In this document: piece by piece, positions 2,065-12,100 of the stretch
Layout of the letters: each line of letters starts with the position of its first letter
How positions within the stretch are numbered: position 1 is the first letter of the stretch
Virus record (IMG/VR): IMGVR_UViG_3300017788_000169
Span: 1 to 23,948 of that record
From: a virus
Length of the DNA stretch: 23,948 bases
Reading direction: 5' to 3' (one strand)
The notes under the pieces: generated by a model
Seen by the model: the letters and a program-made list of their open reading frames with translations, nothing else
Told to the model about the DNA's origin: nothing
Databases searched by the model: none
Position numbers and translations under genes: made by a program

Positions 2065-2511
2065 CTATTTATTATCTTTATCTTCTGTAAATTGATTTTT
2101 CAAAAGTTTTGATAACTCAGCAGTTGATCCTACAAATAATGCATTTGTAACATTTGTTGGGCCTTTAGAGGATTTTGTTTCGTCGATATCTTTAAGTTTC
2201 TTTTGGAGATCAATTAACTTATCTGTGGCATCTGCAACGTTTTTGATTAATTGTCCAGCAACTTCATATGCTCTAGGCATTTCGCTTTCTTGTGCGAGTT
2301 CCAAAATACCATTTAATGCTTCTTGTCCTTTTTCAATAATTGCGTATAAATTTCCTCTAGTATATTCGTAATCTTTTTTAAGATCATTGGAAACTTCTTC
2401 TATCTCATCAATTTTTTTTTCGATAGTTTCTACTTTTGTTTCTACAATTTCATTAGAAACATTAAAAGTTTTATTTAAATCTTCAAACTTTTTTGTCATT
2501 TTCATAATCAC
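2065..2511 (-). CDS. gp16: Small terminase subunit gp16 (DNA packaging)
   Basis: The protein regulates or recruits the large terminase gp17 for headful packaging of concatemeric DNA. At up to 148 residues it is slightly shorter than T4 gp16 (164). After a charged N-terminal coiled coil (about 15-50) it has 'KDYEYTRGNLYAIIEKGQEA', an 'ESEMPRAYEVAGQLIKNVAD' helix and a 'TNVTNALFVGSTAELSKLL' C-terminal segment. These align by eye with T4 gp16 'DYGVVRRNM', 'NADSPRHMEVFATLM' and 'NATVFMGSPTELM'. The longest start is GTG at 2511, giving a GTGA overlap with the gp15 stop (2508-2511). ATG at 2505 (two codons in) is an equally good start, as GTGGG lies just upstream of it. The gene shares a late transcript with gp15. 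Unlike T4, gp17 does not follow directly. Confidence 0.85.
   Translation of the reverse strand: MIMKMTKKFEDLNKTFNVSNEIVETKVETIEKKIDEIEEVSNDLKKDYEYTRGNLYAIIEKGQEALNGILELAQESEMPRAYEVAGQLIKNVADATDKLIDLQKKLKDIDETKSSKGPTNVTNALFVGSTAELSKLLKNQFTEDKDNK
2066..2073 (-). promoter_or_regulatory. T4-type late promoter box for the 111/107-residue gene pair
   Basis: The minus strand reads AATAAATA, one base from TATAAATA. The box overlaps the gp16 stop codon (TAG at 2067-2065) and lies at the edge of a 21-base gap before the next ATG at 2043. The predicted leader is about 15 bases. Confidence 0.6.
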
Positions 2512-3500
2512 CCACTAAATCCAAAATCATCCCCTGCTTGAATTAATGCATTATCCGCAGCAACGATTAGATTAACAGCACTGCCTAATACATGAGGTGC
2601 TGCAATTGTATTATCTGCTCCGCGTTTAACTGTAAGTTGATTTGAGGTTTTTGCTTCAACATACATTTCTTCATTATCAATGGTAATATAATCTCCCGCT
2701 ACAATACCAGAAGCATCATTGACATCAATAAATTTGGTTGTTTCATTAATATCTACACCTAAGTTAGTAACAACATTTCCGCTGTAACTCTTAATCGCTC
2801 TAGGTTCTGCTGAATATGTAATATCTCTTGTTGGAGTTCCAGTGGCATCTCCAGCAATATAACCGATAGAAACTTTTTTGATAACATCTTTGGAAACATC
2901 GGTGATAGGGCCAAAAAGATAAGTTTTAGCAGTAAATCTTAAAGTATAAATTAATGCTCTTCTTGTATCAAAATTCCCCTCATAATCATCTTGCATTGAA
3001 ATACCTTCAAAAATAACTGGTATATCTCTTTTTTCTCCAATTTGTTCTACTAAATCAATTGTCAATGTATATTGTGGTTGGAAATATGGGAGTACTTGTT
3101 CAATAATTTGAAGCATATCATCATTTAATTTTGTCATGATGCTCAGTTCAAATGTCATGTTATAAGGAACTGGCATATAAACTCTTCTAATTTGTTTTTC
3201 ATCAGAAGATAATCCAGACAAGAAAGTTTGAGTCGTAGTTACTTTTCTTGATGGATCGTATGTTAATCCAGTAAATTCAAATGACATTCTTGGTAATGAC
3301 ATTTGAACTGGTTTATTTAAATTTGGAACCTGCTCAAGTCTTGCTAAAAACTTTTGAGTTGGCCCATATGCCAAAGGAACTTCAATGACACTAACAGTTT
3401 GATCTGAACTGTTGACATGTTTGATTTTTATACCATTAAATAACGTTCCGAACGAAACAATGGTTTTTCTCAAAATTTCGTGGTAAAAATATTCAAACAT
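2508..3500 (-). CDS. gp15: Tail completion / sheath stabiliser protein gp15
   Basis: gp15 caps the top of the tail tube and sheath and forms the joint with the neck. The N-terminal three quarters match T4 gp15 by eye: MFEYFYHEILRKT against MFGYFYNSSFRRY, 'VPLAYGPTQKFLARL', 'LPRMSFEFTGLTYDPSRKV', 'YNMTFELSIMTKLNDDMLQI' leading into EQVLPYFQP, and 'KRDIPVIFEGIS'. T4 gp15 is 272 residues and this one is 330. The extra length is C-terminal: residues about 254-312 form an 'IDNE' module (VAGDYITIDNEEMYVE, then LTVKRG, then AAPHVLGSAV) that also occurs in the YHYH and DUF4815 proteins here. A late promoter box lies 35 bases upstream of the ATG. Shine-Dalgarno complementarity is weak (TTTACTAACATG). 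Confidence 0.92.
   Translation of the reverse strand: MFEYFYHEILRKTIVSFGTLFNGIKIKHVNSSDQTVSVIEVPLAYGPTQKFLARLEQVPNLNKPVQMSLPRMSFEFTGLTYDPSRKVTTTQTFLSGLSSDEKQIRRVYMPVPYNMTFELSIMTKLNDDMLQIIEQVLPYFQPQYTLTIDLVEQIGEKRDIPVIFEGISMQDDYEGNFDTRRALIYTLRFTAKTYLFGPITDVSKDVIKKVSIGYIAGDATGTPTRDITYSAEPRAIKSYSGNVVTNLGVDINETTKFIDVNDASGIVAGDYITIDNEEMYVEAKTSNQLTVKRGADNTIAAPHVLGSAVNLIVAADNALIQAGDDFGFSG
2565..2741 (-). other. IDNE module in the gp15 C-terminus
   Basis: Residues about 254-312 of gp15 follow the pattern 'G-D-I-I-D-N-E-x-M-x-V ... L-T-V-x-R-G ... A-x-x-H-x-x-G-S-x-V'. The same pattern occurs in the YHYH protein (about 17905-18106) and, more loosely, in the DUF4815 protein (about 7187-7350). T4 gp15 lacks it, so it reads as an added C-terminal module, probably a small beta domain. 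Confidence 0.65.
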
Positions 3501-3534: not shown

Positions 3535-3542
3535 TATTTATG
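3535..3542 (-). promoter_or_regulatory. T4-type late promoter box for gp15-gp16
   Basis: The minus strand reads CATAAATA, matching the T4 late consensus at seven of eight positions. The gp14 stop codon TAA (3540-3538) lies inside the box. Transcription would start about 6 bases downstream in the 37-base gap, giving a leader of about 28 bases before the gp15 ATG. Confidence 0.65.
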
Positions 3543-4920
3543 GCGTTCCGAAAGGATTCCTCTCACTAAAATCAATAATCAGATCTGCTTCTTGTTCAAT
3601 TATATCATTTTGAGCATATGGATCTACTAAATTATTCGTTTGAACTGTTCTAAGACTATATGATGCTGAGGATGCTGAACCAACAACTATGTCGCCATCA
3701 ACAAAGTCTTTTGTGATTTTGTAAACTTCTAATGCACTAGTTGTAGCGTTCCAAGACTTAACTAATGCGGATGCTCCACTTACACTACCAGTAACCGTTT
3801 CATTAGCAACATAAGTGCCAACACCGATCATATACGGAGATCCAATTGTAATTGTTGGTGCAACAGTATATCCGAGTCCTGCGTTAGTGATTGTAATTGA
3901 AGTAACTACACCAGCAGTATTGATTTTTGCTCTTCCTGTTGCTGTAATACCTGTTCCAACTGGAGCAGCACTGAAAGTAACAAGTGGTGGAGTCGCATAT
4001 CCACCGCCGCCACTTGTGAGATTTATTGCTCCCACAATACCATCACCTATAGTTGCTGTTGCAGCCGCTCCTGCACCGCCACCCCCAATAAAAACAACAG
4101 ATGGTGCTACAGTATATCCAAATCCAGGATTTATAAGTTCAACTCCCTGAACTTTTAATGCACTTGTGCCATTACAATCAACAAGATTGCCAATCATTGT
4201 TGCAATACCAATTGCAGTTTGCCCTCCTGATGGAGCAGATGAAATTGCAACTGTTGGAGTTGATTTGTATCCACTACCTCTATTGGTAATCGTTACAAAC
4301 CTAACTCCGCCATTAACTATAGTAGTGGTTGCTGTTGCAGTCGTACCTACTCCAACCAAAGTAAGAGTTTGAATATAACCATCATTTTCAACATTATCAT
4401 CAATTTCATCAATTCCAGTATTTACAACTTCGTCTTCATATCTAAAGAGTTCACACCTCAGTTCATAAACATATGTTTTTTGAAGTTGGTAAAATGGTTT
4501 TTCATGCTCAACAAATTTGATTTCAAATAATCTATCGCCCAATGGAAAATAAATTAAGTCCCCCTCTTTGGGACGAGTTGATAATTTAATATTTGGTAAA
4601 TTTTGAATCAATGGAGTAATATAATTTTCAAATCTATCTTTTGAAATAATCAGTGTCAAATCTGTAAGTGGTTGAATACCAAATTTTGATAAAATTGTTC
4701 CCTGTCCCTCATATCCTTCATAAGTATCAACATATGCTTCTAATGGATATGCATTATCAAATTTTGATTCGATAACTTCTTTAATAATTGTTTTTTCTGT
4801 TACGTATTGACGAGGAAGATAATGAATGTCAACTCCATACATGCGGAGTTGTTCATTGATCAGATCCTGAATCAATCCTTGTTCGTTTTTTGATCCCTGT
4901 AGAAAAAATGGATTGAGCAT
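3538..4920 (-). CDS. gp14: Neck protein gp14 with a large repeat insertion
   Basis: With gp13, gp14 forms the neck that closes the filled head and joins it to the tail. Residues 1-180 match T4 gp14 by eye: 'GVDIHYLPRQYV', 'EAYVDTYEGYEGQGTILSKF', 'KEGDLIYFPLGDRLFEI' and KPFYQLQKTYVYEL. The last 15 residues (IIDFSERNPFGTP) resemble the T4 gp14 tail 'SFESSPFDNDF'. T4 gp14 is 256 residues and this is 460; the difference is an insertion at about 183-430. That insertion holds four Gly-Tyr beta repeats (around 205, 258, 297 and 340) and then a 'GE..GS.SGA' module (370-418). The ATG at 4920 comes one base after the gp13 stop, so translation is probably coupled. A late promoter box overlaps its 3' end. 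Confidence 0.92.
   Translation of the reverse strand: MLNPFFLQGSKNEQGLIQDLINEQLRMYGVDIHYLPRQYVTEKTIIKEVIESKFDNAYPLEAYVDTYEGYEGQGTILSKFGIQPLTDLTLIISKDRFENYITPLIQNLPNIKLSTRPKEGDLIYFPLGDRLFEIKFVEHEKPFYQLQKTYVYELRCELFRYEDEVVNTGIDEIDDNVENDGYIQTLTLVGVGTTATATTTIVNGGVRFVTITNRGSGYKSTPTVAISSAPSGGQTAIGIATMIGNLVDCNGTSALKVQGVELINPGFGYTVAPSVVFIGGGGAGAAATATIGDGIVGAINLTSGGGGYATPPLVTFSAAPVGTGITATGRAKINTAGVVTSITITNAGLGYTVAPTITIGSPYMIGVGTYVANETVTGSVSGASALVKSWNATTSALEVYKITKDFVDGDIVVGSASSASYSLRTVQTNNLVDPYAQNDIIEQEADLIIDFSERNPFGTP
3835..4308 (-). repeat. Four Gly-Tyr beta repeats inserted in gp14
   Basis: Four units of about 22 residues lie at gp14 residues 205-228, 258-279, 297-318 and 340-362. Their cores are TITNRGSGYKSTPTVAIS, ELINPGFGYTVAPSVVFI, INLTSGGGGYATPPLVTFS and TITNAGLGYTVAPTITIG. 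The consensus is 'hxIxNxGxGYxxxPxVxI' with small linkers rich in Gly, Ala and Thr. The unit is shared with gp8, the DUF4815 protein and the YHYH protein in this window. The codons for PGFGYT are identical at 4113-4128 and at 17167-17182 in the YHYH gene (a 16-base identity). Confidence 0.85.
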
Positions 4921-4921
4921 T

Positions 4922-5767
4922 TTATCCGATCATGTCCAGTGGGGGTAATTCGTATGTACTCGACATTCTTTCCATAAGAATATCTAGTTCTCTTTGAGCA
5001 TCGTCATATATTTGTCTTCCATTCAATTCAACTCCTCCAGGGAGTTTAACTCCTTGGAATTTAATTAAATTCTGTCCCCACTGACGTTTAATCAATGCAG
5101 TTAAATATGGTTTTAAGAAAGAATCATTCCATACTCGTGCATAATCATTACCATCCATTGTTCTCCAACAATCGATAATGATCCAATTTCCTACTGCCGC
5201 ACTACCCCAATCAATATCTAAGTAAAGTCTATCTTGTCTTTTATTAAATCTAATTTGTTTATCAGTTGTCAAAAGAAAATCAATATCTTCAAGATAGGTT
5301 TTAACCATTGCATAAGTTAACAATTCAGTAGATCCCCAATAATAAACATCGTTGAGAAACAATTGATATTTAACACTAAACATATTATGAGTAATACTAT
5401 TAGTGCCATCAAATTTATAAATTTTATTTACTCCAATTACGGATGGATGAACTGGCAAATAATTTCCATTCTCCTCAAACTTGAATGAAGTACTATTTCC
5501 TACGGTTTCATTAACAATTGTAGTTGTAATGCCTACAGATCCAGATGATCCACCTCTTGCTCTTCCTCTATCAATATCATCTTGTGTAATCTGATATTTC
5601 ATGTAAGTTTGATAGACACCATCAAAGTGTCTTTCTTGGAAAAATTGCACTGCATCATCAACAAGATCTTCAATCTGTTCATCGGCAACGTTGATTTCTA
5701 AAACTGGATATCCCAGTTTTCTTTTGCAGTAATCGATCAGCTCTTGTCGCGTTGATGGTTGTGCCAT
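4922..5767 (-). CDS. gp13: Neck protein gp13
   Basis: gp13 is the partner of gp14 in head completion. It binds the portal side of the filled head before tail attachment. At 281 residues it is close to T4 gp13 (309). The N-terminus has the family layout: 'RQELIDYCKRKLGYPVLEIN', 'VADEQIEDLVDDAVQFFQER' and HFDGVYQTYMKYQ, parallel to T4 'LKDVILRRLGAPIINVEL', '[21 protein letters not shown]'. Further on are 'WIIIDCWRTMDGNDYARVWN' and 'RQWGQNLIKFQGVKLPGGV', well conserved in T4-like marine phages. The ATG at 5767 shares its A with the stop of the 54-codon gene (TAATG). The gp14 ATG follows its own stop by one base. It is probably on the transcript that begins at the gp8 late promoter. Confidence 0.93.
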   Translation of the reverse strand: MAQPSTRQELIDYCKRKLGYPVLEINVADEQIEDLVDDAVQFFQERHFDGVYQTYMKYQITQDDIDRGRARGGSSGSVGITTTIVNETVGNSTSFKFEENGNYLPVHPSVIGVNKIYKFDGTNSITHNMFSVKYQLFLNDVYYWGSTELLTYAMVKTYLEDIDFLLTTDKQIRFNKRQDRLYLDIDWGSAAVGNWIIIDCWRTMDGNDYARVWNDSFLKPYLTALIKRQWGQNLIKFQGVKLPGGVELNGRQIYDDAQRELDILMERMSSTYELPPLDMIG

Positions 5768-9100: not shown

Positions 9101-12100
9101 GTTCTGCAAGACTTGCAATATCTACATTTAAAATAGTCGAAGTTGCTGAATAATCTGCGGGGAAAGTTGCAGTATTTTGTTGATCGTAAGGATTTCTCAC
9201 ATAAACATCTGTAGGAGCATTGAATGGCCCATATTTATGATTTGCAGTTGCAACTCTAAAAACAATTTCATTTAATGTTGTTCCAGGAGTAAAGTTTTCT
9301 GCAACAGTTGCTGAAGAAATAGTTCCAATTACAGTTTCTCCAACTTCAAATACTCCAGATTCCATCGTAATTTCAAGTAACTTTGGAGTTACAAAATTAT
9401 TAACGTCTTGTCCATCAAAGAAAGAATAAACTTGAGTGAATGGCCTAAATCTCTTACCAGTGAATTCAACGTTTCTAGATCTCATGTATTGAACAAGTTC
9501 ACTTGAAACAATAGAATCTCCTTGAGAAACAACGTCAACCTGCTCACTCAACTTAAGTCTAGTTCCAGTTCTTTGTTGATCGCTAACTGTTGTTGTGGTT
9601 GTGGTTGTAGTTGTGGTTGCAACACGACCCCACCGGCCGCCCCACCAGCCGCCACGCCAGCCGCGCCAACCATAATATCCATAATGTCCACGCCACCACC
9701 CATAACCACGTCCATACCAATAATATGGCCAACCCCAACCTCTATATTTGGTTGATTTAGACTGTGATGTTGTAGTTCCCGACCATGTTGTTTCCCAAGC
9801 GCCCCAAGTAACTGGACTGTATCCCGTTTGGGGATCCCATCCAGCAGCAGTTAACTGTTGTTGTGTTGCTGTAAAGTTATCAATTTCAATTCTCTTCGCA
9901 TCAATTCTTACTTGATCAGTCCAAGTATCGGATGATGGGAATAATTCAATTGATCCATTGTATCTTGTAACTAAGAATGGCGTTACATTAACAGATCTAG
10001 TTGCATAAGGTTGAACAACTCTAGCAACATCAGTATAATCTAATGTAATAAGTTGTCCTGTTCTTCTAATATTGTTTCCAACCAAATCAGTAACAAATCT
10101 AGCATCTGCAGTGGGATCAACAGATTGTCCAATTCCAATCAAGGATCTTGATCCAACCAAAAGATCTATTTGTGTTGTATAAGGAGAAGGCCTCAATTCT
10201 GAGTTAACAACATCAATACTATTTTTAACTATTGTAGATTTAATTTGAGAACTGTTGTTTGTAAAATTATCTACAAAAAATCCAGATTTAAATCGATCAA
10301 GTCCAGCACTGTCTCTAATTTTTAAATTTTCTATTTTTGTTTCGAGAAGATTTAATGTTGTATATGACTCTAAATTTTTAATTCTTTCTTCTAAATTAGA
10401 GATATCTCTCATTTGATATCTCTTATGCTGTAAGAAATTAATCGTTGCTTTTGAAGCGTCGCAAAGATATGGTGGAAGTGTTATTGTTGCAACTTCAAGA
10501 GCATTATCTAACGTTGGAGGTAATTCTGGGGTTTCACTTGGTTCACCAATGTTTAATTGAAAAACTCCTTCTCTTGTTAAAAATAATCTATCAATTCTTG
10601 GAAGATAATGCGAGTAACTTAAAACAATTGATTCGTCGGATGCTAAAATATTTTTTCCACTGTTTCCAACAGTGGAAAAAGTTCTAGATAAAAATTCAAA
10701 AGGAGATCTAGATCCAGAAGTTGTTGTATAATTTGCAACTCTGGGACGAATGTCAATAATATCAGAGTTATTATAATTATTAGAAAATGCAATTGTACAA
10801 TAATCAAACTGAGTGTATGAATCTGCTGTAGTAATATCTCCTTGATCTGAAGTTAAATATCCAGCAGATTCAAAAATAAATTTTAATTTTCTAAATGGTG
10901 CTTTGTTATCTTGTTTTCTAATTACTTTTGCATAATTGTATATAGTATCGTTCGTACCATTATCTAATGAATAGTTACTTAAAATATTTGGTGATCCCAG
11001 AGAAATAGATTGAATTACTGCAGTAATTCCGGATTCTTTGAATGTTACGACTTCACCTTCTTGGAAAGATTTTTCGTTGAAATATAAAAAGTCAATCTTT
11101 AGATCATTATTTTTTGCAACGTAAACACCAACAGCCTTACTAGTTCTTCCTACAAACTGCTCACCAACTAACAAATCATTTGTTTTATTAGTTGGGCCAT
11201 TAAGTTGAGTAAAAGTTATTGTTGGAGTAACAGGATCATTAGTATCAGTAGATTCTAAAATTGCATACAATAAAGTTACTTCTGGAGTGTTTAATGAAAT
11301 TTCTTCATCTTGAACTCTAGTTCCATATGGATATGATCCATAAGATAATCCATCGTTTAAAGTAGTTGTTCCAATACCGGAAGAACTAAGAGTAGAGTTA
11401 TTGACGACTAATGTATTAATTCTATTTTTATTTTTAACCTTTGAAGTTACATTAATTTTTCTTAATGTAGTGATGAGACGAGCATTTGCATCATTTGTCC
11501 CCAATCCAAAAATAGTTAATTGTTTTGATTGACTATCAAAAACTAACTTATCCGAAGTTAAAGGTTCAAAAGTTCCATTAGAGCGAGTTAAAACATACCT
11601 TTCTTCATCAAAAGGTAAGAAAAATTCGTCAGTTCCAGCAGTTACTGTATTTGTTTGATTGCTAGTAATCGAAACAGAAAATTCTTTTCTAATTGTTAAG
11701 TTAGACTCTGTTAAATCTACAGATTTAATATATGATTTTGGTAAAGGAGTATATAATGTATTATCTGGTGATGGTTGGAAATTAGATGCCAAGATTACTA
11801 AATCACTAACACTTGCTGCAGATGATGGCGGTGTTCCCTCACAAACTCCCGTAACCGTAGTAACACCAGTAACTACGATTGATTTTGGCTCAACACTCAG
11901 AACTCTAGAGAAAGTTGGAACAGGTGATCCAGAAACCGTGTATCCAACTAATCCACCAACTTTAACATTATTTGTAAATGTAAAGTCGTTATTTGTAGAA
12001 ACGCTAATACTACTAATTCCACTGGTGCTCCTTGCGGTAACAGACGCAATTCCAACGATATAAGATGGTGTTTGAATAATATCACCAGTAAATATTGTTG

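Follow-up and report, generated by a model that had tools for sequence, protein, structure and literature searches.

The neck protein analyzed here has its nearest structural counterpart in gp14 of phage T4 (PDB 9lu4-9lu7, 9mkb), in which the core is followed by a gp15-binding tail of ~80 residues with no beta insert. Residues 178-256 of T4 gp14 are disordered before tail attachment and contact gp15 extensively in the virion (PMC12270204). The collar and whiskers of T4 are made of fibritin, which is encoded by a separate trimeric fibre gene (wac) and docks on domain III of gp13 (residues ~190-239), not on gp14 (PMC12270204). Stoppers may also carry extra domains of their own. In Staphylococcus phage 812 (8qgr, 8qkh), the stopper combines a beta-barrel with an external beta-sandwich domain that is absent from the E217 and Pa193 stoppers, and separate decoration proteins are thought to reinforce the neck (PMC12886913). 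Our literature searches turned up no experimental structure of the neck for any T4-like marine cyanophage.

We analyzed a viral genome fragment of 23,948 nucleotides, hereafter called the window; the features for which we give window coordinates below lie on its minus strand. It encodes a gp7-like protein (2835 amino acids [aa]), gp8, a 2538-aa DUF4815 protein, gp13, gp14, gp15, and gp16, and the order 13-14-15-16 is that of T4. Residues 1340-1380 of the DUF4815 protein (9624-9746) form a Gly/Trp/Tyr/Arg-rich stretch, YRGWGWPYYWYGRGYGWWRGHYGYYGWRGWRGGWWGGRWGR, followed by VA and a threonine run.

The gp14 gene (neck protein, head-closure Hc2, or stopper) occupies 3538-4920 and encodes 460 aa plus a stop codon, compared with 256 aa in the T4-type gp14 of UFV-AREG1; an earlier note on this DNA had given the same two lengths. 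The whole protein matches phrog_460, head closure Hc2 (1.3e-132). The Pfam family PF11649 (T4_neck-protein) spans residues 2-177 (2.5e-31), and no Pfam match was found beyond residue 177 when the whole protein was scanned; NCBIfam gave no match. At the sequence level, T4 gp14 from the PDB aligns with residues 2-171. The fold agrees as well: residues 28-177 of T4 gp14 superimpose on residues 1-162 of the AF2 model of the window protein with VIA Z scores of 11.6-12.1 and rmsd of 3.4-4.3 Å over 124-134 aligned residues (9lu4-9lu7). The T4 N-terminal domain is thus kept, as the earlier note had stated, in a core of an N-terminal helix and a beta-barrel (residues 1-162; 4435-4920). A linker with a predicted helix at residues 171-180 joins this core to what follows (4381-4434). 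We read the window gp14 as the ring protein for head closure (stopper) in a T4-like marine cyanophage of the Kyanoviridae type.

Between core and tail lies a segment that T4 gp14 does not have. Our alignments place it at residues 181-432 (3625-4380), refining the borders proposed before (183-430), and the net excess over T4 is ~230 residues. The AF2 model predicts an all-beta insert, with pLDDT of ~82-96 over residues 181-430; the pTM is 0.53, and the model does not fix how the insert is oriented to the core. Two parts can be told apart, both named in the earlier note and both confirmed. The first is a GE/SGA beta-barrel at residues ~365-432 (3625-3828; the GE/SGA sequence itself covers ~365-425), whose first strand is formed by residues 183-189, within nucleotides 4345-4380. 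The second is a block of GxGY repeats at residues ~193-364 (3829-4344), placed in a loop of that barrel, with repeats starting at residues 215, 266, 305, and 348. Shuffling the insert 20,000 times never gave four GxGY...P repeats, the maximum being two. Taken together with the distribution of gp14 types described below, the model supports a putative independently folding beta domain that is optional among T4-like phages.

Residues 181-432 of the model also resemble residues 765-847 of the T4 baseplate chain 5iv5_BJ (Z of 8.6, rmsd of 2.2 Å, 76 aligned residues), which we take to be gp7 from its length. This match is consistent with a barrel interrupted by repeats but may reflect only a common arrangement. 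The chain belongs to a baseplate protein and not to a neck, small barrels of this kind are common, and kinship with the insert is not implied. For the GxGY block by itself we retained no relative, either by fold or by sequence: the insert profile matched no PDB chain at E values up to 1, and the top Foldseek and VIA matches for the whole model were to the barrel part and the core of gp14.

Within the clade of the window the insert is general, whereas in the superfamily it is optional. It is present in all 80 of the nearest viral contigs, each of which covers at least 96% of the window GxGY block; its length is near-constant, and gp14 measures 458-483 aa wherever the gene is complete. Across T4-like phages, gp14 spans 208-762 aa, and the gp14 alignment across cyanophages, which the earlier note had proposed as a way to map the borders, locates the variation mainly between core and tail. 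Its lengths are 208 aa in pf16, 216 aa in SKML-39, 256 aa in T4-like phages, 279 aa in phi-ST2, 292 aa in S-CAM1/3, 345 aa in S-H34, 374 aa in S-CAM4, 390 aa in S-H25, 470 aa in P-SSM2, 481 aa in S-SM2, 492 aa in ACG-2014f, 644 aa in S-8S53, and 762 aa in S-SSM6a. Because a few queries supplied these loci, how often each class occurs here does not reflect its abundance in nature. The region is therefore not a part of the core fold common to every T4-like gp14 outside the coliphages, given the short proteins of pf16, SKML-39, and S-CAM1/3. The five longest, from P-SSM2 to S-SSM6a, all belong to Kyanoviridae and share with the window protein its core, its beta insert, and a tail of the (N/D)PFG kind; they differ from it in repeat number, and the S-SSM6a type adds a LamG-like domain. 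In Pseudoalteromonas phage vB_Psh_XG4 (locus L423), a marine phage whose host is not a cyanobacterium, gp14 has a possible GE-type barrel between the core and an NPF tail, with a marginal score (36 of 1,000 shuffles).

Comparison of these types suggests how the insert was assembled. Core and tail of the S-CAM1/3 proteins are separated by nothing more than a small GE/SGA module, with no GxGY repeats. Residues 361-432 of the window protein are homologous to the S-CAM1 module from end to end (score of 78 against 27 ± 5 for shuffled sequences; 0/1,000), and removing the GxGY block from S-H25 gp14 raises its match to S-CAM1 from 99 to 132. The repeats do not occupy the same position everywhere: they lie between barrel strands 2 and 3 in S-H25 and S-CAM4, but the window type has them between strands 1 and 2. 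From this sequence comparison, the repeats appear to have entered a single barrel at least twice, in different loops, as a domain facing outward would permit. Purifying selection maintains the insert, which changes faster than the core: median dN/dS values, rough because dS is high (0.8-0.9), are 0.043 for the core, 0.126 for the GxGY block, and 0.087 for GE/SGA (36-38 pairs of relatives). Repeats of a similar kind are found elsewhere in the window, in gp8 and the gp7-like protein, as well as in many virion families. We considered and rejected recent copying of the module within the genome, as the insert is only ~30% identical to the gp7-like protein even where the two match best.

The S-SSM6a type carries a further domain in the same segment. 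In this 762-aa gp14 (loci L087:1995-4283 [S-SSM6a] and L258-L337), a LamG/ConA-like match (PF13385) lies between the GxGY repeats, with E values down to 1.3e-6 in the 19 members scanned. By Pfam score, the lectin assignment is borderline: one member reaches 28.6 bits, where the cut-off is 27.6, and others stay just under it. AF2 gave no usable model of this type (pLDDT of 52). The Pfam scan of the window gp14 found no PF13385.

The C-terminal tail of the window gp14, residues 433-460 (3541-3624), reads YAQNDIIEQEADLIIDFSERNPFGTP and follows the pattern YAxNDxIExEADxIxDFSExNPFG. The earlier note had described a conserved tail; this stands for the cyanophages, among which the alignments show it to be well conserved, but it resembles the tail of T4 gp14 only weakly. 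In pairwise comparison, 40 of 1,000 shuffles score equally well, a marginal result, and the profile-profile match is also weak (probability of 30%; one-on-one E value of 5.5e-4). Kinship of the two tails is weak but plausible, and by comparison with T4 the window tail is predicted to bind gp15. The gp15 gene (tail sheath stabiliser/terminator, 330 aa) lies at 2508-3500. PF16724 covers residues 4-245 of its product, and residues 246-330 form a C-terminal extension beyond that domain.

What would such a protein look like in the virion? The small GE/SGA barrel would hang between the channel-lining core and the C-terminal tail of gp14, with the block of four GxGY beta-repeats held in one of its loops. 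Six copies of gp14 would then place a ring of beta-domains around the outside of the neck, where gp14 meets gp15 and the head joins the tail. There they could act as a decoration bracing the joint, and perhaps they would also adsorb weakly to particles or to glycans on cell surfaces. We infer the exposure of the insert, its six-fold ring placement, and its role from the comparisons above. We consider it probable that the insert is a solvent-exposed beta decoration of the stopper ring at this junction, with bracing of the head-tail joint as its most likely role. The earlier note had proposed a beta collar decoration that possibly replaces fibritin. An optional, folded insert under purifying selection, repeats common to virion proteins, and a LamG-like domain in one clade all fit the exposed part of that proposal; replacement of fibritin, discussed below, is not supported. 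Phage 812 offers a precedent, with an extra external beta-domain on a stopper barrel in a decorated neck. Its extra domain is a beta-sandwich and not a combination of GE/SGA and GxGY, with no demonstrated sequence kinship; in the window gp14, the extra beta-domain is predicted with confidence, and its position on the outside would follow from the comparison, the pTM of the model being 0.53.

The strongest competing explanation is that the insert is not a free decoration but a structural part of the head-tail joint, packed on gp15 and the first sheath ring and holding the tail. The insert adjoins a tail whose T4 counterpart binds gp15 (residues 178-256; PMC12270204), and its length is near-constant in the 80 relatives. 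Moreover, gp15 is usually longer in the classes with larger gp14 inserts, an observation that speaks against a pure decoration and also fits joint elaboration of gp14 and gp15 with the insert partly buried. The median gp15 length is 333-361 aa in the 460-492, 644, and 762 classes of gp14 (333 aa in the first and 357 aa in the last); where gp14 belongs to the 292, 374, or 390 class it is 262-269 aa, and T4-like phages have 272 aa. This correlation is confounded by phylogeny. Yet P-SSM2 and ACG-2014f have gp15 proteins of T4-like length (280 and 266 aa, respectively) despite their large gp14 inserts. The insert also changes more quickly than the core and tolerates additional domains, and a buried interface is hard to reconcile with a LamG/ConA-like domain in the same segment. 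We regard a packed interface as an unlikely explanation, albeit one to be taken seriously.

Returning to an exposed decoration of the stopper ring, a bolder version would make the segment between core and tail a swappable display platform on the neck. Its six beta-domains, lectin-like in some lineages, would bind glycans on hosts or particles and provide adsorption separate from that of whiskers and tail fibres. We hold this version to be doubtful, a little more so than the packed interface.

It is improbable that the insert is a mobile or neutral module, that is, one of the GxGY and GE/SGA repeats that have spread among marine phage virion proteins and are tolerated in exposed loops with no specific role. 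Such a scenario would account for the recurrence of repeats of this kind in gp8, the gp7-like protein, and many virion families, but the low dN/dS and the near-constant length across 80 relatives speak against it.

There remains the link to fibritin. The window gp13 (neck protein, 281 aa; 4922-5767) aligns without the fibritin-binding domain III of T4, with the junction near nucleotide 5164. The domain III region comprises 50-54 residues in T4-like and KVP40-like gp13 but 9 in the window and nine cyanophage gp13s (alignment A3), so that the domain is missing in 10 of the 10 cyanophage proteins compared, the window's included. The SKML-39 protein has 11 residues at this position in the same alignment; the pf16 row is not gp13 and was ignored. 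Two other features of this region were observed: gp13 of S-8S53 (L084:372-1490) has an insertion of ~90 residues in its N-terminal half (372 compared with 281 aa), and in S-H34 (L088:1314-1967) an annotated homing endonuclease gene lies between gp13 and gp14.

We searched for wac with the fibritin protein of a T4-like phage and with the Pfam model Fibritin_C, and found no match in nine complete cyanophage genomes. Of the controls, the T4-like genome was positive for both queries, and the KVP40-like genome was positive for the protein query. In a tenth genome, S-H34 (NC_070965.1, 41240-41509, minus strand), a Fibritin-C-like domain lies inside a 998-aa open frame in which the rest of fibritin is unmatched. 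We did not count S-H34 as a wac carrier, because the match is to the C-terminal domain only and falls inside that frame. These results agree with the missing wac of the earlier note, the absence from the window itself, a 24-kb genome fragment, being drawn from its relatives and its own gp13. Fibritin absence in cyanophages therefore looks real, but it is not tied to the gp14 insert, because S-CAM1/3, without GxGY repeats, also lack wac.

The idea that the insert has taken over the whisker or collar role of fibritin, in sensing or in holding tail fibres, draws on this absence of wac and on the loss of its binding domain from cyanophage gp13. T4 fibritin is indeed a neck decoration, as proposed for the insert, but it is a separate fibre that docks on gp13, at a domain absent from all ten cyanophage proteins, whereas the insert is part of gp14. 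In addition, the all-beta AF2 model of the insert contains no coiled coil or foldon, and gp14 has no match to a Pfam fibritin family. Since S-CAM1/3 lack fibritin although their 292-aa gp14 contains no more than the small barrel, and SKML-39 (Ackermannviridae, 216 aa) and pf16 (208 aa) have neither a fibritin match nor a gp14 insert, we consider replacement the least likely of these explanations, and very improbable.

Overall, the necks of cyanophages appear to lack T4-type whiskers, judged by gene content. The locus is also a cautionary case, in that the absence of fibritin and the acquisition of the insert in gp14 are events independent of each other. The gp14 modules show that virion surfaces can diversify without fibritin, and modular beta-domains on the stopper ring, lectin-like in a sister group, indicate where extra density at the neck should be sought.
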